This document shows positions 1 to 7,001 of a stretch of DNA of 32,890 nt, piece after piece. The notes below the pieces were generated by a model that did no database searches, was not told the origin of the DNA, and was given only the letters and a program-made list of their open reading frames with translations. Position numbers and translations under genes: made by a program. Origin of the DNA: a virus; IMG/VR virus record IMGVR_UViG_3300034684_000438, positions 1-32,890 of that record; one strand, given 5' to 3'. The stretch's first letter is position 1. The number at the start of each line of letters is the position of its first letter.

Positions 1-486
1 CTAATTGTTTTTGCGCTCCCGCCTCCAGTCCCACGGTGGTTGCGGCATCCCTGCGGCCCACAGGCCGCGTTGCGCGAGCGCTGCGCGAATCGTCACCACC
101 ACCCACTCGGCACATGGGATGACGGAGCGGCAATACTGCGGGTACACCCACGCCTGACCAGCATCGAGCAGGGCCGCGTTGATGTCGACGTCTCCATGCT
201 GCACGCGCCCGACCACGCGCCCGTAACGGTCGGTGTCCATCGTTCGCACGTCGACGGTCTCCTCATCCGCGAGCATCTCGCGCAAGTAGTCTCGCGCCTC
301 TGTCCCGCCGGGCTGTGCAAGCTCTGGAGCATCCACCCCGTAGAGCCTCACCTTGACGACGTCACCGCTCGTGCGCCGCACGGTGAGCGTGTCGCCATCG
401 TGGACGTCGAGCACGACAGCGGGCCACGCGACGGCCAACGAGGGGCACGCGAGCAAGGCGCAAAGAAAGACGCTAATCCTAATCAT
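1..486 (-). CDS. Secreted thermonuclease homologue (SNase fold)
   Basis: A 161-residue protein of the staphylococcal nuclease family, which cleaves DNA and RNA with Ca2+. Residues 1-20 form a signal peptide (MIRISVFL..., hydrophobic core, small residues before the cut near A20), so it should act outside the cytoplasm. The active-site set of the family is present: D30 and D32 in DGDT, R47, D52 and E55 in the VRLYGVDAPE block, and R90 in DRYGR. The start at 486 is preferred over 510 and 498 because AAGGA lies about 5 bases upstream and the protein then begins with the signal peptide. It is the last visible gene of the accessory operon and overlaps the HTH gene by 8 bases. Its role in a phage is inferred: degrading extracellular or incoming DNA, or a trait for the lysogen. 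Confidence 0.88.
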   Translation of the reverse strand: MIRISVFLCALLACPSLAVAWPAVVLDVHDGDTLTVRRTSGDVVKVRLYGVDAPELAQPGGTEARDYLREMLADEETVDVRTMDTDRYGRVVGRVQHGDVDINAALLDAGQAWVYPQYCRSVIPCAEWVVVTIRAALAQRGLWAAGMPQPPWDWRRERKNN

Positions 487-688
487 CGAGTCCTTCATCA
501 AGTCCAGCACGTATAGCCAGGCAAGCGAGTACCGTTCTGCGGTCTATAATGACACGCCGTTCTGTGGCGAACCTAAAACCTCGCTCCCACTCCTGGTAGG
601 TTTTAAGGTTGACGTCGAGCCTCTCTGCAGCCTCACGCTGTGACAACCCCATGGCGTTACGCCACGTCTTGATGTCAAACTGTGTCAT
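479..688 (-). CDS. Small XRE-type HTH protein, candidate anti-CRISPR-associated (Aca) repressor
   Basis: A 69-residue protein that is little more than one helix-turn-helix. Residues 8-36 (WRNAMGLSQREAAERLDV..., then the recognition segment TYQEWERG) match the lambda-repressor/XRE pattern, and the rest is a short C-terminal helix. The start at 688 is chosen over 694 because GAGG sits 7 bases upstream of it. The gene overlaps the 3' end of the AcrVA2-like gene, exactly where Aca proteins lie relative to acr genes; known Aca proteins are small HTH repressors that bind inverted repeats in the acr promoter. A perfect 17-bp palindrome in the promoter of this operon (6949-6965) is an obvious candidate site. 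Calling it an Aca is inference from size, fold and position; it could be a generic phage regulator. Confidence 0.8.
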   Translation of the reverse strand: MTQFDIKTWRNAMGLSQREAAERLDVNLKTYQEWERGFRFATERRVIIDRRTVLACLAIRAGLDEGLDD

Positions 689-1646
689 CGTCATCCCTCA
701 TGGCCACAGCGATGGGTGCTAGCCAGCGATATGTGAACCTCTGTGCTGCCTTCGGCCCCGTCCAGTATCCGTGCCAGTGCGCACGCCTGATGTGCGGACG
801 CGGGCCACTATGGGCGTGTGAGGCCTGTACCCGTCTCCCCGCTGCGATGGCCTCTCCGAGCGTTTCCCCAACGTTCCACACACGGGGGGAGTCTGGCGGG
901 AACAGCCGCCATCCATTCTTTGTGCGTTTCGGCGCTGGACGCGACGGCACAGCAGTTCCATTGCCGCCCACTTCTGCTTCATCACTGCAGAGGTAGAGGA
1001 GCATTGACACTAACGGACTGGCGAACTCCGCCAATTCTTCAACCTTGTCCCTGTAGTTATTACCGAGATCTATCCCAAACGTCTGGCCTTGGCGACATGC
1101 CTCCTCTGCAAATCGCTGGACACCATCGACAATGGACCAGTCACCAAGATGGATGATAATCGGCGAAAGGGAGTCCTCACCGTTGAGCAGTAATCGAAGC
1201 TCTTTTCTCCCGGTGTTCGCATCACTTTCAAGATGCGCCCAAAATCCATCTAGCGGCCCATACAGGGATCCCGCATTGAGCTGTGGCGTTTCAATGTAGA
1301 CGCACCACTCTTTGAGACGAAGCATCACCTCACATGGTATCGGGCCAGCGACTGGGGTTGAGGCCAGCGCTGCGAGCACGTCAGGATGAAACTTGTATAT
1401 CCCCTGCGAGACGCGCCACGCGCCTAGAGCACCTAGACGTGAAACATCCGCTGCAAGTTCTGGCCGAAGGGTCTGAACACCAAGATCTTGGCAAACAATG
1501 GCGTGCCACCCACCCAGCGGGAGGAAGCACCATGCTGGCCATGGCGTCAGCCCCTTACCCATCTCGGCGCGCAACTCATCTGCTAGCCTCCATGCGTTAG
1601 GATACACTCGCCCGGCGCATACAAGATGCTCTACTGGCGAAAACAT
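675..1646 (-). CDS. AcrVA2-family anti-CRISPR homologue
   Basis: A 323-residue protein that I recognise as a homologue of AcrVA2 (Moraxella bovoculi, about 322 residues). Shared blocks, from memory of the family, are GAWR...GIY at 75-84, the LKEWCVYIE block at 111-119, a hydrophobic LLYLC helix in the middle, and the signature PHIRRAHWHGYW at 284-295 followed by an Arg/Trp-rich strand. AcrVA2 blocks type V-A immunity by causing loss of Cas12a mRNA, recognising the conserved Cas12a N-terminus during translation. Homologues occur on many mobile elements, including in hosts not known for Cas12a, so the target here is open. The ATG at 1646 overlaps the stop of the IbrB-like gene, and the 3' end overlaps the HTH gene, giving an acr-aca arrangement. 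Confidence 0.8.
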   Translation of the reverse strand: MFSPVEHLVCAGRVYPNAWRLADELRAEMGKGLTPWPAWCFLPLGGWHAIVCQDLGVQTLRPELAADVSRLGALGAWRVSQGIYKFHPDVLAALASTPVAGPIPCEVMLRLKEWCVYIETPQLNAGSLYGPLDGFWAHLESDANTGRKELRLLLNGEDSLSPIIIHLGDWSIVDGVQRFAEEACRQGQTFGIDLGNNYRDKVEELAEFASPLVSMLLYLCSDEAEVGGNGTAVPSRPAPKRTKNGWRLFPPDSPRVWNVGETLGEAIAAGRRVQASHAHSGPRPHIRRAHWHGYWTGPKAAQRFTYRWLAPIAVAMRDDDDTV

Positions 1647-2188
1647 TACTGCTCACCCGCTTCGTAGAATTGTTCATCTTGCGTGTTTGCAGCCCATGCC
1701 CTGCTGAACTCTCGATCTTTGAATAACGCGGCGAGGCCGCTGATCTGCTTGAGGCGTAAAAGTTCGTCCGCGTCCATGCCTATGTTTTTCACTATCCACT
1801 CGTCGCTCATACCAGCAGCAACGAGTTCAGCCACGATGTTAACCATGAGGTCGATCGAGTGAGTACCTCGCGCCCTATTGTGGCGGATGGTGCTTGCCAT
1901 GCGGTTGCTGATGTCCTTGTCGATGACAACGACAGGCATCATCCCGGCTTCACGTTCTCTGACATCCGCACAAGTGAGCATGACGGTGTACCGGTGGAAT
2001 CCGTCTACTATCTCGTAAACATCCTCGTCGGGGAGGTGGTAGCAGACGATGGGCATTGTGTACCCATCCTCACGGATGCTCTTCTCAAGAAGCCGCATTT
2101 CGGGAGGGGCAACAGCATTGGGGTTATAGACGTTGGCTCGTATCTTTTCGATTGGCACAGGGCGCACGTCGTAGACAGGACTCTTCAT
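1646..2188 (-). CDS. IbrB-like ParB/sulfiredoxin-fold protein
   Basis: A 180-residue ParB-N-domain protein. The motif DGFHR (62-66) replaces the GERR/GxHR motif of ParB and resembles the DGQHR motif of DndB-type proteins. RHNRARGTH (102-110) is the second conserved block, and residues 127-155 look like a helix-turn-helix. The start at 2188 is preferred to the longer frame because GGAGAAGAG stands directly upstream and overlaps the end of the GNAT gene (stop and start share TAATG). Pairing with a PAPS-reductase-family protein two genes upstream matches IbrA-IbrB, described in E. coli as activators of prophage-borne eib genes. ParB-fold proteins can be CTPases, nucleases or kinases, so the reaction here is unknown. 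Confidence 0.82.
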   Translation of the reverse strand: MKSPVYDVRPVPIEKIRANVYNPNAVAPPEMRLLEKSIREDGYTMPIVCYHLPDEDVYEIVDGFHRYTVMLTCADVREREAGMMPVVVIDKDISNRMASTIRHNRARGTHSIDLMVNIVAELVAAGMSDEWIVKNIGMDADELLRLKQISGLAALFKDREFSRAWAANTQDEQFYEAGEQ

Positions 2189-2613
2189 TATCTCTTCTCC
2201 ATCTTCAGTTCCCAACGCACAAACTCGCCACGCCGAGCAGACTCGGACATGATGAACCCGTTGTCCTTCCACAGGGTGTTCGTCTTCCGGTCATTGCTGT
2301 GAACGGCAATCGCCCCCCTTTCGCGGAGGGTATCAAGCGCAGCAAGAAGCAAATTGCGTTCTGCATCTGCATCTCCAAATGCGTATATGAATCGGATATG
2401 GGCGGCTTTTCCCGTCGAAAGGATGCGCGAAAGAGCAAACCCTACAACCTTTCTGCCTGACATGCCCACATGCCAAAGGTCTCCGGGCCTGCTGGTAATC
2501 GCCATGCCAAGCTTCTTATGCACGGTGACGTCTGTCAGCATATGACCGATGGCCCCGAAAAGCGCCTTGTCGCTTGATGCCTTTTCACCCTGTGTGTACG
2601 CAGTGATGTCCAT
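2188..2613 (-). CDS. GNAT-family acyltransferase
   Basis: A 141-residue single-domain protein with the GNAT layout: a beta strand with GRKVVGFALSRI (53-64), a central IRFIYAF strand, then DADAERNLLLAALDTLRERGA, where an acyl-CoA-binding turn and helix are expected, and a C-terminal LWKDNGFI strand typical of the fold. The Q/RxxGxG/A loop is degenerate, so acyl-CoA binding is likely but not proven. AGGAG lies 8 bases before the ATG, and the gene starts one base after the PP-loop gene ends. It lies between the IbrA-like and IbrB-like genes, which suggests it works with them, for example by acylating a protein or a modified base. That role is inference; phage Mu Mom, a GNAT-related DNA modifier, is a precedent only. 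Confidence 0.75.
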   Translation of the reverse strand: MDITAYTQGEKASSDKALFGAIGHMLTDVTVHKKLGMAITSRPGDLWHVGMSGRKVVGFALSRILSTGKAAHIRFIYAFGDADAERNLLLAALDTLRERGAIAVHSNDRKTNTLWKDNGFIMSESARRGEFVRWELKMEKR

Positions 2614-2614
2614 G

Positions 2615-3907
2615 TTACAGACTCCTGTACTTTTCGAGAGCAGCTTGCCGTCGTTCCATCTCCGCCTTGTTCAAGCTAAAGCCCATGTACTTACCGACAT
2701 GGTCATTTTTCAGGATGCAGACGCATAGACGTTTCCATGTCGGTATCAGCCTAAAGTCCTTACTGTCGACGTCGTCAGCATATTCCATCCGCACGGGCGT
2801 CTTCTGTGTCCTGTAGTTCGTTCCGCCTCCAGCGTCGAACGTGATACCTGCACGACGCAAATCCTCTATGGCATCCTCCCCAAGGCAACCGCCTTTCTCA
2901 CGCCAAAACTTGATGCTTGTTGCCAGCTTCTGCCTGAAACCATCCGCCGTCTCTTGGGGGAGGGTGTCCAAGAGGAACATGGCATATTGCTTCCATGTCA
3001 TGTGGTCTGGCTTTGAGATCTGCCGCCAGCCCATGGCCTTTGTATCTCCGTAAATGGCAGTGAAATTCACACCATTCACGCGGCTGACCATACGTCCCCA
3101 CACGTGAGGGTCTAGTGCGCGGTAAAGCCCGAGGCTTGCCTTGGCTGCGTTGTGGAACGGGCTTGCCACACGCATGGCATGGAGGGGCAAGCCTGCGTAG
3201 TGCATGAGATTGTACAGATCATTATATGCCCATCCATTTCGAGCGTTGGCCGTCCATATATCTTCGGTGCTCCAGTCATAGATGGGATATGCGTTGTACA
3301 CGCCATCTGAAACTCGAGTTGTCCATGGTTTTCCACGATACTTATTGATGTTTCGTTCGCTCATGATAGTGCGCCATCTATCAAGGCTTTCTTGGGCACG
3401 TATTCCGACGAGAACACACGTGCTTTTTGCACCTGTCGCCTTACGATGCCATAGCGCAAAGCTCTCTTGAAATTCATAGTCGCTCATTTCAGGTGTTATG
3501 AAGTCGAATGCCTCCACCCCGACATGGTCCGCGGGGAGAGGTCTCACCCACAAATCTCGCTTTGATTCCTCCCACGGCCTCCAGAATGTTTCAAACATAC
3601 TCGTACAGGTCGGGCATTTGACAGGCACACAGCACCGGTATCTCCCCACTCCGTGGGGAAGTGATGCAAACGTGTTGTCGACGAAGTCTGTTGTAGCGGT
3701 GTACTGCGCCTCATAATCAAGGTGAAAAACATCAACTCTGTCTAGAGCGTTGAGTTCGCTGGCGAGGCCCAGCGTCAGGTTGAGAAGCACTCCAGAATCT
3801 TTGCCGCCGCTGAACGCGACGACCACACGGTCGACCTCATCGAACACAAACCGCAGCCTCATTCGGGCTGCATCCCATACACTGACGTTGAGAGTATGCT
3901 GTATCAC
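2615..3907 (-). CDS. IbrA-like PAPS-reductase-family PP-loop enzyme (DUF3440-type)
   Basis: A 430-residue protein with an N-terminal adenine-nucleotide alpha-hydrolase domain. The PP-loop SGGKDS is at 33-38, after the strand DRVVVAF. Four cysteines at 92, 93, 98 and 101 (CC...CPTC) could bind metal or an Fe-S cluster, and the C-terminal half resembles the DUF3440 extension of IbrA. True PAPS reductases are about 240 residues and reduce sulfate for assimilation; this longer type is found on mobile elements with a ParB-like partner. DndC of DNA phosphorothioation is a related enzyme. The start is GTG (3907) with GAGG 5 bases upstream, overlapping the SNF2 stop by 4 bases. The substrate is unknown; activation of a nucleobase, backbone or tRNA by adenylation is plausible. 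Confidence 0.85.
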   Translation of the reverse strand: MIQHTLNVSVWDAARMRLRFVFDEVDRVVVAFSGGKDSGVLLNLTLGLASELNALDRVDVFHLDYEAQYTATTDFVDNTFASLPHGVGRYRCCVPVKCPTCTSMFETFWRPWEESKRDLWVRPLPADHVGVEAFDFITPEMSDYEFQESFALWHRKATGAKSTCVLVGIRAQESLDRWRTIMSERNINKYRGKPWTTRVSDGVYNAYPIYDWSTEDIWTANARNGWAYNDLYNLMHYAGLPLHAMRVASPFHNAAKASLGLYRALDPHVWGRMVSRVNGVNFTAIYGDTKAMGWRQISKPDHMTWKQYAMFLLDTLPQETADGFRQKLATSIKFWREKGGCLGEDAIEDLRRAGITFDAGGGTNYRTQKTPVRMEYADDVDSKDFRLIPTWKRLCVCILKNDHVGKYMGFSLNKAEMERRQAALEKYRSL

Positions 3908-5346
3908 AACGACCTCACTAGCTGCATCGCGCGTTCACGCAATCCCTTGTTCCTGCACTCCTCGATCTGCTGCTGAAATTCTTCGAGCGCATTACCCTTG
4001 CGAGCCAAAGCTGATGAAATCCTGTCATCAATGCTCCGCGAGCAGTGCAGCGAAACGTACACAGGCCGCCGCGTCTGGCCTATCCTGTGATTCCTGTCTT
4101 CGGCCTGCGCCCGTTCCATATGCTTGAAGCTGTCCGCGTAGAATATGGTATACGCGGCCTCGTTGAGCGTGAGGCCATGCCCTCCGGTGCTCTGTGTCGC
4201 AACGAGAAAACGGGCACCAGCCCGCCACCGTGACAGATGGGCGGCGCGGGCAGGATCCGTCTGCTCCCCGTAGTAGAGGCAAACGGAGTCCTCACCGTAC
4301 TCCTCTGCCAGCTCCTGATGTATCTCGCGCACGGAATGCCGGTATTTTGCCCATATGATGACCTGCTCATCCTCTGGGATCTCACCTATTGTGGAGCGCA
4401 ATATGCGAGTCCGTGGATGCCCGATGGCCTCTACGGTTCCATCTGGCCTGCGCCAGAATCCACATACGATACTCTGCAGACTGGTGAACAAATGAAATAA
4501 CCGGATGGGACTCCAGTCATCATAATCAAGAGAGAGGATGGCGAGCTTTGCCTCTTCGTAAAGATCTCGCTGTTCGGCTGTCATGCTGAAATAGCGTGTC
4601 TCGTAGAGCTTCTCCGGCAGATCGAGGCACTCGTCCTTGCGAACCTGATATGTGTACGGCGCGATCTTTGCCGCGAGGTACTCGGCATTATGGCTTCTGA
4701 TGATGCGACCTGTTTTCCGCTTTCTCCCGTCAGGGCCACGGCGCTCCTCGTATTCGAGATGATTGGCAGCGAAGCTCCAGAAAGAGCGGTATCCGAGTAT
4801 GTTCGGACTCAAGAAGAACATCTGGCTATACAGATCCACAGGCCCCTGCGAAAACGGAGTGCCCGTCATGATGGCCCGATAACGACAGCACGAACTCATG
4901 TGCGTGATACGCTGCGACCGCTTTGACCTGTTGCCCTTGATGTATGCGGATTCGTCAACGGCAACAAAACTATTCTTTGTTACACAAGAGTTGTAGGCCA
5001 ATACAGTTCTATCGCTGGAACTCATGCTCTCGATGCCAACGACATGAACACGCGCTTCGTGACGGACACCCCTATCCATGGTGCGCGAATCCCACAATTC
5101 GATGTCTTCGTATTCGAGGTCGGTATGGATCAACAACTGTTCACGCACATTGTCCCGCAACGAACACGGGGTGAACCAGAACAGCTTGTCCCACTTCTCC
5201 TGTCGGATACGCGCCAGTTCAATGAGTGTACGGCTTTTGCCTGTGCCCATGTCCATGAACAAGGCCCCCACTCTGGGCGGCAGCAGCTTTGCCACCGCCC
5301 GTTCCTGATGGGGCATGAGGGAGCTACGAGTCGAGAAGTGACGCAT
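3904..5346 (-). CDS. SNF2-family DEAD/H-box DNA translocase
   Basis: A 480-residue superfamily 2 ATPase with both RecA lobes. Motif I MDMGTGKS is at 31-38, motif II DESA at 131-134, motif III TGTP at 161-164, and motif VI EDRNHRIGQ at 416-424. The RNHRIGQ signature is specific to the SNF2 class, which pump along duplex DNA and remodel protein-DNA or fork structures rather than unwind. No nuclease domain is fused. The start at 5346 has GAGGAG about 10 bases upstream inside the preceding gene, which it overlaps by 23 bases. Upstream is a HARP-like protein, so the two may form a split version of a HARP-SNF2 fork-remodelling enzyme. It is followed directly by the IbrA-like gene. Confidence 0.92.
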   Translation of the reverse strand: MRHFSTRSSLMPHQERAVAKLLPPRVGALFMDMGTGKSRTLIELARIRQEKWDKLFWFTPCSLRDNVREQLLIHTDLEYEDIELWDSRTMDRGVRHEARVHVVGIESMSSSDRTVLAYNSCVTKNSFVAVDESAYIKGNRSKRSQRITHMSSCCRYRAIMTGTPFSQGPVDLYSQMFFLSPNILGYRSFWSFAANHLEYEERRGPDGRKRKTGRIIRSHNAEYLAAKIAPYTYQVRKDECLDLPEKLYETRYFSMTAEQRDLYEEAKLAILSLDYDDWSPIRLFHLFTSLQSIVCGFWRRPDGTVEAIGHPRTRILRSTIGEIPEDEQVIIWAKYRHSVREIHQELAEEYGEDSVCLYYGEQTDPARAAHLSRWRAGARFLVATQSTGGHGLTLNEAAYTIFYADSFKHMERAQAEDRNHRIGQTRRPVYVSLHCSRSIDDRISSALARKGNALEEFQQQIEECRNKGLRERAMQLVRSL

Positions 5347-5644
5347 CGACTGACGTCTCCTCGATCAGGGGAGTGAAATGACCCGGCTTGGGTGGCACGG
5401 CCACGGCTTTGCATCGTACATAACGGCCCTTGTCATCGAACTGGCCAACGACCTTGCGGTGGCGATCACTATACCCAGACCGTGTATGCCCGAATGCGCT
5501 TGACAGGTAGTCATATTGCGCAGCCGTGAGCCAGTGTACCGATTTACTTTCGCCCACAATTTCCAACTCGACTCGCCACTTTTCGAACCTTGTCCACGTT
5601 GCTGCCGCAACCGTATGGATGGTCTTCTCTGTCAAATCACCCAC
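5324..5644 (-). CDS. Hypothetical protein, 106 residues
   Basis: I do not recognise the family. The GTG start at 5644 is well supported: GAGGAGG lies 6 bases upstream, inside the end of the preceding gene, and the reading frame overlaps both neighbours (8 bases upstream, 23 bases into the SNF2 gene). The protein is soluble with no membrane segment. It has a central basic stretch (SGYSDRHRKVVGQF) and a C-terminal acidic tail, consistent with a nucleic-acid-associated accessory protein, but nothing specific can be said. Being locked between the zinc-ribbon/HARP-like gene and the SNF2 gene suggests it belongs to the same complex. Confidence 0.72.
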   Translation of the reverse strand: MGDLTEKTIHTVAAATWTRFEKWRVELEIVGESKSVHWLTAAQYDYLSSAFGHTRSGYSDRHRKVVGQFDDKGRYVRCKAVAVPPKPGHFTPLIEETSVDASLLDS

Positions 5645-6896
5645 GCGACGCCTCCTCATCCATGAGATCGTCAGCGATGGCGACATTGTCGGGGACGTCC
5701 AGCTTCGGTGGGACAAGAGAGATCTCGGGGCGTACAGGCGTCGGCACGTCCTTGATGTCTGTGACCACGGCACCGTGCTCAAGAGCCGCCCTGTGGGCAA
5801 CCAAGATGTTGCGCACATCATCGGTCATCGAAAAATCGTAACGCTCTGCGAACTCGAGCACAGCTTCGATGGCTCCAGGGGGGACAACAACCTTGCCGTC
5901 GTTGTATCTCGAACCGGGCAGGCTTCGGGCAGCGGCATAAAGATTGTCGGCCTTTGGCCACAAGATCGCGAGCCATCCCTTGTATTTCTCACCCGCATGG
6001 ACTGTCACCCAACGGCGGTGCTCTGGTTTGAAGCAACCGTCGATGGCCATTTGTCTGGCGGTCTCATCGTGGATGGAAACGATGAACCCCGAGCTTACGA
6101 TGCGATGCGCCACCTCAGCGGCCCTGTCGATAGGGTCTCCAGTCCGCGAATTGAGACGCTTTGACCAATACCCATCAGCCCATTTGTAGCCGAGCATTTT
6201 GACGGCGGAGCGAAAGTCGTTGTTTACCTCTGCGAACGTGACACGAACGTCATTGGCGTGCAGCGAGACCTCTGCAACGATTTTGCTCGCAGGCTCACCT
6301 TCTGGCATGATGTAGGATTCGCTTACCGCTTCTTCGGCCTCATCTTGCGCATGTGGCAAAAGCAAGGCTTCGGAAATTTGTGCTGAAAGCTCTTCTGCCA
6401 TCGCCGGGTAGTACGGAGACCTGTGGTCGATCCACCATGACGCACGAGTCTGCGCCCGCAGCACAGAAAGAAAAGCTGCGCAACGCTCCGGCCCTCCGCA
6501 GATTTCCTTCAACCCACGCGCCATCTGCGCACAGGTGTGTATATCCATGCGGGACTTCGACAGGATAGCCTCAACCTCTGCCGAATCGCGTGCAAGGCCA
6601 CGAGCACTGGCGTCAACAATCGCGCACAACACCTCGATGTCAGCCAAGGCTGTGGCGCGTATCTGTTCTGCCCATGCAATCTGCTTAGGGCTGCCTGACA
6701 ACTCGGGTAGGCCCGCCTCTGAATTGGCAATGGCTGCCTTTGCACCCTGTTCTGCATATGCTGCACGCTGACAGTCGTCACAAATCGCGTGCTGTGATTC
6801 GCGATACTTCGCGTGCCTCTCTGCCTCCTTACGGGAGCGTGCAACCACCGTGACCACTGCCCCGCACTCCGCACAATCATAATAAGCTTTTGCCAT
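5637..6896 (-). CDS. Zinc-ribbon protein with HARP-like C-terminal region; first gene of the accessory operon
   Basis: A 419-residue protein. The N-terminus carries two Cys pairs (CAEC at about 8-11, CDDC at about 39-42) that look like a zinc ribbon. Next come a helical region containing the block GSPKQIAWAEQIR, common in phage proteins, and an acidic linker. The C-terminal part holds two strand-rich segments (about 225-285 with KMLGYKWADGYWSKRL; about 295-360 with RYNDGKVVVPPG...FAERYDF) that resemble the HARP region preceding the ATPase in SMARCAL1-like SNF2 enzymes. The start at 6896 is chosen over 6908 because GAGG lies 6 bases upstream. I infer a DNA-junction recognition subunit for the nearby SNF2 translocase; the HARP assignment is tentative. 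Confidence 0.75.
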   Translation of the reverse strand: MAKAYYDCAECGAVVTVVARSRKEAERHAKYRESQHAICDDCQRAAYAEQGAKAAIANSEAGLPELSGSPKQIAWAEQIRATALADIEVLCAIVDASARGLARDSAEVEAILSKSRMDIHTCAQMARGLKEICGGPERCAAFLSVLRAQTRASWWIDHRSPYYPAMAEELSAQISEALLLPHAQDEAEEAVSESYIMPEGEPASKIVAEVSLHANDVRVTFAEVNNDFRSAVKMLGYKWADGYWSKRLNSRTGDPIDRAAEVAHRIVSSGFIVSIHDETARQMAIDGCFKPEHRRWVTVHAGEKYKGWLAILWPKADNLYAAARSLPGSRYNDGKVVVPPGAIEAVLEFAERYDFSMTDDVRNILVAHRAALEHGAVVTDIKDVPTPVRPEISLVPPKLDVPDNVAIADDLMDEEASRG

Positions 6897-6938
6897 GAAG
6901 AACCTCACCTATCGGGTCGTGAGTTATTGTTGAAGCTA

Positions 6939-6967
6939 GTTCTATCACGACTGCATAATGCAGTCAA
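6939..6967 (-). promoter_or_regulatory. Sigma70-type promoter of the accessory operon
   Basis: On the minus strand, TTGACT (6967-6962) and TAGAAC (6944-6939) are separated by exactly 17 bases. This gives a good -35 (5/6) and an acceptable -10 (4/6), with transcription expected to start near 6932 and a leader of about 35 bases before the ATG at 6896. It stands directly downstream of the terminator that closes the virion operon, so the nine accessory genes form their own transcription unit. Confidence 0.7.
6949..6965. promoter_or_regulatory. Palindromic operator in the accessory promoter, with flanking CACGAC boxes
   Basis: GACTGCAT-A-ATGCAGTC is a perfect 8-bp inverted repeat with a one-base centre. 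It covers half of the -35 box and most of the spacer, so a bound protein would block RNA polymerase. A second inverted repeat, GTCGTGA (6916-6922) with TCACGAC (6945-6951), brackets the -10 element, and CACGAC recurs at 6970-6975. The obvious candidate ligand is the Aca-like HTH protein encoded at 479-688; a host or prophage repressor is the alternative. Confidence 0.65.
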
Positions 6968-6977
6968 CACACGACAA

Positions 6978-7001
6978 CAAAAAAGGCCGGTTCCCCGGCC
7001 T
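6978..7001 (-). terminator. Rho-independent terminator closing the virion operon
   Basis: On the minus strand a perfect 7-bp GC-rich stem AGGCCGG/CCGGCCT with a GGAA tetraloop is followed by six T residues. It begins 7 bases after the stop codon of the TraR-like gene. It separates late structural genes from the accessory operon. Confidence 0.9.

Follow-up and report, generated by a model that had tools for sequence, protein, structure and literature searches.

Which nascent protein would a homologue of AcrVA2 recognise in a phage whose host lacks Cas12a? The preliminary description of this locus raised that question, and our analysis indicates that it was the right one. The window, i.e. the whole virus record of 32,890 bases, is that of a tailed phage with genes for terminase, portal, head protease, major head, tape measure and tail proteins, and the genes of this 33-kb record lie on the minus strand. 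The open reading frames for the 323-aa AcrVA2-like protein and for a small HTH protein were found where the preliminary description had placed them (Table 1). They belong to an apparent second operon that encodes, in this order, the 423-aa protein, SNF2 helicase, DUF3440 PAPS reductase, the 141-aa protein, ParB, the 323-aa protein, the HTH protein and the SNase-family nuclease, which reaches its stop codon at the end of the record. The 423-aa gene is the first after a terminator-like hairpin and is therefore probably the start of the operon. The ParB stop codon and the start codon of the 323-aa gene share one base (TAATG at 1648-1644), and the HTH gene starts inside the 3' end of the 323-aa gene. 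Given the overlap with ParB and the reading of the genes on the minus strand, the two genes form the 3' part of a longer operon and not a stand-alone acr-aca pair. Besides the window, SNase-family genes, some with apparent signal peptides, are found near AcrVA2-like genes in four other loci (L070:5067-5549, L119:5243-5683, L052:2361-2744 and L068:5424-5050).

Table 1. Features of the second operon and of the region upstream of it in the window
Feature	Coordinates	Strand	Remarks
SNase-family nuclease	1..510	-	apparent signal peptide; downstream of HTH gene
Small XRE-type HTH protein	479..694	-	71 aa (69 aa from second ATG, 688)
AcrVA2/FinQ-superfamily protein	675..1646	-	323 aa; invariant W77 and C-terminal H285-x-R287-R288-x-H290-W291-H292
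ParB/IbrB-like protein	1646..2272	-	widespread phage gene
141-aa protein	2188..2613	-	GNAT-like by eye only; flanked by the PAPS reductase and ParB genes
PAPS-reductase-like protein	2615..3907	-	with DUF3440 (IbrA-like)
SNF2-family helicase	3904..5346	-	first gene of the cassette
423-aa protein	5637..6908	-	phrog_16123; first gene past the terminator
Candidate operator	6949..6965		17-bp perfect palindrome GACTGCAT-N-ATGCAGTC upstream of the operon
Intrinsic-terminator-like hairpin	6984..7001	-	between the tail genes and the operon of 675-1646

In the Desulfatitalea class, 37 of 291 genomes contain a match to the terminase of the phage, with up to 45% identity over long alignments; in gammaproteobacteria, 15 of 274 genomes do, with no more than 32%, and the best isolated phages reach about 28%. 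The nearest relatives of the AcrVA2-like protein on the tree come from Geoalkalibacter, Desulfovibrio and Desulfatitalea. On the strength of both similarities, the host is likely to be a member of Thermodesulfobacteriota; the sulfate-reducing host proposed earlier is supported indirectly, through the terminase.

Sequence, profile and fold all give firm support to the homology of the 323-aa protein to AcrVA2 over its full length. In a phmmer search of the PDB, AcrVA2 was its only strong match (E 3.1e-20); designed repeat proteins were also listed, but only by the summing of many weak stretches, none of which passed singly. A profile built from 121 sequences retrieved AcrVA2 with E 1.1e-46 over profile positions 9-320, and nothing else in the PDB below 0.1. 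In the alignment, the PHIRRAHWHGYW block of the 323-aa protein pairs with RPHIRRGHWHGYW of AcrVA2. An AF2 model (pLDDT 91.9, pTM 0.90) matched 7ci2/7ci1 in Foldseek (E 4.3e-18) and AcrVA2 by VIA (Z 24.8, 281 residues aligned, rmsd 3.3); neither program found a second fold neighbour, the next unrelated Foldseek match being at 0.05, and we draw no conclusion from this absence. Pfam, NCBIfam and PADLOC contain no model for this protein, and PHROG 6160 matches it at 5.6e-51. Two of the checks that the preliminary description had proposed, the profile search and the comparison of predicted structures, lead to AcrVA2, and the C-terminal signature that it had noticed is present in both proteins as HxRRxHWHG.

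FinQ, AcrVA2 and the window protein belong to one superfamily. When FinQ of an IncI-type plasmid (L005) was used as the query, AcrVA2 was retrieved from the PDB with a phmmer E of 2.3e-17; in pairwise BLASTP, the same FinQ matched AcrVA2 of Moraxella phage at 2e-19 and the window protein at 1e-25, and the family profile scored it at 198 bits (E 1.8e-57). FinQ is a common annotation among the plasmid records that carry homologs, and equating annotated finQ with the genetically tested finQ of R820a depends on that annotation. The finQ gene was reportedly sequenced in 1989. Among the papers searched, none names both AcrVA2 and FinQ. FinQ is a weapon of IncI plasmids against F-plasmid transfer (PMC8744291, PMC5696584) and lowers F-plasmid tra mRNA, an effect reported as Rho-independent termination at several sites (PMC8744291). 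The RefSeq FinQ protein (259 aa; L005:3731-4819, NZ_CP011333.1) appears to lack part of its N-terminus: roughly 100 further codons of open frame precede its annotated start, which is probably placed too far downstream.

Among 141 family sequences, W77 is invariant, P104, G134, H285, R287, R288, H290, H292, G297 and W308 are 96-99% conserved, and the C-terminal H-x-RR-x-H-W-H signature is 94-99% conserved. AcrVA2 of Mcat5, FinQ and the window protein each possess all of these residues, although the window protein departs from the family at two other conserved positions (K112 in place of P and A268 in place of R). Most ionisable residues that are nearly invariant across the family fall within the His/Arg cluster, a concentration that suggests one activity common to AcrVA2, FinQ and the window protein; we infer that this activity is the mRNA-depleting step. 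The RRAHWHG string was also considered as a module shared with unrelated proteins; however, of 80 frames with the motif that a DNA pattern retrieved, 54 were from outside the family, and these look like chance occurrences, mostly out-of-frame reads.

The family extends far beyond Moraxella. A tblastn search matched 596 plasmid records, 559 of them predicted to be conjugative, and 67 phage records. By record titles, the genome matches span many phyla, among them Pseudomonadota, Thermodesulfobacteriota, Bacillota, Planctomycetota, Spirochaetota and Bacteroidota, several of these assignments being those of MAG contigs that are possibly misbinned; homologs also occur on Thermus and Nocardia plasmids. 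Cas12a (TIGR04330) was detected in none of the 50 genomes that carry a homolog and in none of the 291 genomes of the Desulfatitalea class, the likely host class (genomes of either set may be incomplete), while the positive control for this search recovered a full-length Cas12a in one of 274 gammaproteobacteria. Because Cas12a is rare everywhere, these counts point to a lack of association and not to the absence of Cas12a from the actual host. The tree places the window protein far from the validated AcrVA2 clade. As for CRISPR systems in general, Cas1-family matches, low-score ones included, were found in 29 of the 50 carrier genomes, a fraction that has no matched background.

These data do not sustain the anti-CRISPR label of the preliminary description, as the family includes FinQ and hundreds of plasmid and phage proteins from hosts with no Cas12a match, and the target of the window protein is probably a protein other than Cas12a. 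We advise against the annotation of AcrVA2 relatives as anti-CRISPRs and propose 'AcrVA2/FinQ superfamily, probable target-mRNA silencer' as the label in its place. Nor is the wider range of AcrVA2 new in itself, since relatives outside Cas12a hosts have already been reported from Shewanella phage Y11 (PMC10846135) and huge phages (PMC7162821); a 2019 survey found AcrVA2 homologs in two phyla, none of them adjoining a known Aca (PMC6739104). Large phages of Erwinia, Dickeya and Salmonella encode a diverged protein of the family, annotated in one case, probably wrongly, as 'putative mycothiosynthase'; the Erwinia phage records matched are mostly those of large phages of about 235-267 kb. A Blastocatellia contig (JAJTWZ010000024.1) carries two AcrVA2-like genes a few kb apart (L058 and L073), which suggests a paralogous pair.

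Upstream of the 323-aa gene, the SNF2-DUF3440 PAPS reductase-ParB genes (IbrA/IbrB-like; window 1646-5346) are a standard, common phage cassette. Among 80 relatives of the ParB gene, the PAPS reductase accompanies 79 and the SNF2 gene 72, and an AcrVA2-like gene none of them. Conversely, an AcrVA2-like gene lies 3' of ParB in five loci (the window, L111, L103, L027 and L028), which are apart on the tree, where the ParB-linked label requires three changes. The 323-aa gene is therefore accessory cargo inserted directly behind the cassette, at a position where such genes have settled repeatedly, and the cassette was rejected as its functional partner. Apart from integrases and the cassette, no conserved neighbour was seen in at least four loci, one small cluster excepted.

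The HTH protein belongs to Pfam HTH_3 (E 8e-8). Its best PDB match is Aca10 (E 4e-4), over a generic HTH stretch only. Homologs with 43-47% identity are encoded directly 3' of AcrVA2-like genes in L123 and L076/L154, and other HTH-type small genes occupy this position in L109, L113 and L124. Among 73 small downstream ORFs, HTH_31 was found in six and HTH_3 in five, as compared to two for the DNA-binding family found most often in 145 ORFs that follow other genes of the same loci, a comparison that counts by family, not by members, and carries no exact p-value. Most AcrVA2-like relatives have no HTH neighbour, so the recurrence concerns a minority. A ribbon-helix-helix class for many of the coupled small proteins was also considered from by-eye likeness, which is the basis of the RHH label on the tree; individually scanned representatives matched no Pfam RHH family, and HTH is the only class that we claim for these genes. 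The small size of the HTH protein and its overlapping downstream position are those of an Aca protein; the match to Aca10 is weak, and the recurrence is limited to a minority of relatives. An Aca-like role, as autorepressor of the operon, is plausible but weakly supported.

The palindrome upstream of the operon overlaps a promoter-like TTGACT-17-TAGAAC (read by eye). It is a candidate operator only, because shuffled sequence contains about as many palindromes of the 17-bp size as the window does. Across the loci, upstream palindromes were not significantly enriched where a small gene is coupled (8 of 21, versus 36 of 118). In L124, a 23-bp palindrome, GCGTACTCGCC-T-GGCGAGTACGC, precedes the AcrVA2-like gene (at 3440), about 20-42 bases upstream of its start codon, and an HTH gene overlaps the 3' end; this palindrome is a good candidate for an acr-aca-like operator.

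AcrVA2 lowers cas12a mRNA through the nascent N-terminus of Cas12a in a translation-dependent manner and was described as the first prokaryotic example of mRNA decay set off by a nascent peptide (PMC13131331). Both characterised members of the superfamily, AcrVA2 and FinQ, lower the mRNA of a specific target; decay triggered by a nascent peptide is demonstrated for AcrVA2 only. We give an even chance to the view that the window protein is an accessory member of the superfamily that depletes the mRNA of a chosen target, with the HTH protein as repressor. It would recognise a peptide of one particular protein during the synthesis of the latter, and this recognition would lead to loss of the corresponding mRNA, as published for AcrVA2. 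The shared core around H-x-RR-x-H-W-H would carry out the common step, by engaging the ribosome or mRNA, by cutting or by recruiting a nuclease, and the variable remainder would pick the target, Cas12a being that of the Moraxella branch only. In the window phage, whose host is probably Desulfobacteria-like, the most likely target would be either a host defence protein or some gene of a competing mobile element. The overlapping HTH gene would probably act like an Aca gene and repress the operon in which both genes lie. For the window protein, we infer all four elements: mRNA depletion, nascent-peptide recognition, the class of target and repression by the HTH protein. The broader proposal, that AcrVA2, FinQ and the window protein are part of one large superfamily of mobile-element silencers, each of which would recognise a different target by its nascent peptide and eliminate the mRNA that encodes it, falls somewhat short of an even chance in our estimate. 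We put forward the mechanism shared by AcrVA2 and FinQ as a hypothesis, because the effect of FinQ has been reported as transcription termination. A Cas12a-like LSKT peptide as the target of FinQ can be discarded, as it is absent from 33 F Tra/Trb proteins; FinQ must therefore recognise a different feature if the model holds.

Several other readings differ in the target. A true type V-A anti-CRISPR that depletes the Cas12a mRNA of the host, like Moraxella AcrVA2, would agree with the full-length homology and fold, the phage origin and the small HTH gene downstream. It is nevertheless very improbable, in view of the missing Cas12a matches in carriers and likely host class, the distance from the validated clade and the different target of FinQ within the same family. 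The same mRNA-depleting mechanism might be directed at a Cas effector of another type (I, III or II), in keeping with phage origin, an Aca-like neighbour and the Cas1-family matches; those matches, however, are not clearly above bacteria generally, and plasmid members such as FinQ act on conjugation, so we consider this reading improbable. Somewhat better placed, though still unlikely, is a weapon between elements that, as FinQ does, silences transfer, replication or defence genes of a rival plasmid or phage in the same cell. The prevalence of conjugative plasmids among the matches and the homology to FinQ, itself such a weapon, speak for it, whereas the window is phage DNA, prophages are among its immediate relatives, and no rival gene can be named.

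Two further readings concern the mode of action. A role in regulating the genes of the phage itself, in partnership with the ParB/PAPS-reductase cassette, could be read from the overlap of the start codon with the ParB stop and from the repetition of this order in four other loci; we regard it as quite improbable, since the ParB relatives keep their cassette without an AcrVA2-like gene and most AcrVA2 relatives lack the cassette. Alternatively, the protein could be a steric inhibitor that binds its target after translation and has no action on mRNA. The crystal structure of AcrVA2 with the Cas12a 618-634 peptide (7CI2; PMC13131331), at a site distinct from the LSKT region, is consistent with such binding. 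Set against it are the translation-dependent loss of cas12a mRNA, the lower tra transcripts caused by FinQ and an invariant basic/His motif that exceeds the needs of a variable peptide groove, and we find a purely steric role improbable as well.

Should target-mRNA depletion triggered by a nascent peptide prove common to the superfamily, Cas12a inhibition would be one specialisation of a general bacterial mRNA decay coupled to nascent chains, and the 'transcription termination' attributed to FinQ would be co-translational loss of mRNA. If FinQ and its relatives share the degradation step of AcrVA2, fertility inhibition would gain a testable molecular explanation, E. coli carrying F and IncI plasmids would offer an easy system for studying the mechanism, and the family would provide a natural collection of silencers directed at different targets.

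Among known systems, Aca10 (PDB 7XI5, PMC9410881) resembles the window HTH protein as a 65-aa HTH protein encoded downstream in its operon, and its operator is a palindrome with a 1-bp spacer inside the promoter, like the candidate at 6949-6965; the similarity of the two proteins is weak and confined to the generic HTH. ORF43 of Shewanella phage vB_SbaS_Y11 (PMC10846135) is likewise an AcrVA2-like protein borne by a phage whose host has not been reported with type V-A, but it falls into the Moraxella AcrVA2 clade (99% SH-aLRT) and the window protein into another. The closest named relatives, encoded on plasmids of Geoalkalibacter (pGSUB1) and Methylotuvimicrobium alcaliphilum 20Z, are 45-47% identical over the full length; in contrast to the window gene, theirs lie outside the SNF2-PAPSR-ParB cassette and have no coupled HTH gene. 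Moraxella AcrVA2 (PDB 7CI1, 7CI2) differs in its clade, its neighbours, an identity of about 23% and the lack of a Cas12a match in the likely hosts of the window protein; the two agree in their length of 323 aa, fold, full-length profile match, C-terminal HxRRxHWHGYW signature and location on a mobile element. FinQ, about 25% identical with a diverged N-terminal third, is encoded by a conjugative plasmid, blocks F-plasmid transfer and is reported to act by terminating tra transcription, whereas the window protein is encoded in a tailed-phage record; yet it shares with the window protein the superfamily, the invariant residues, a mobile-element gene and hosts in which Cas12a is unexpected.
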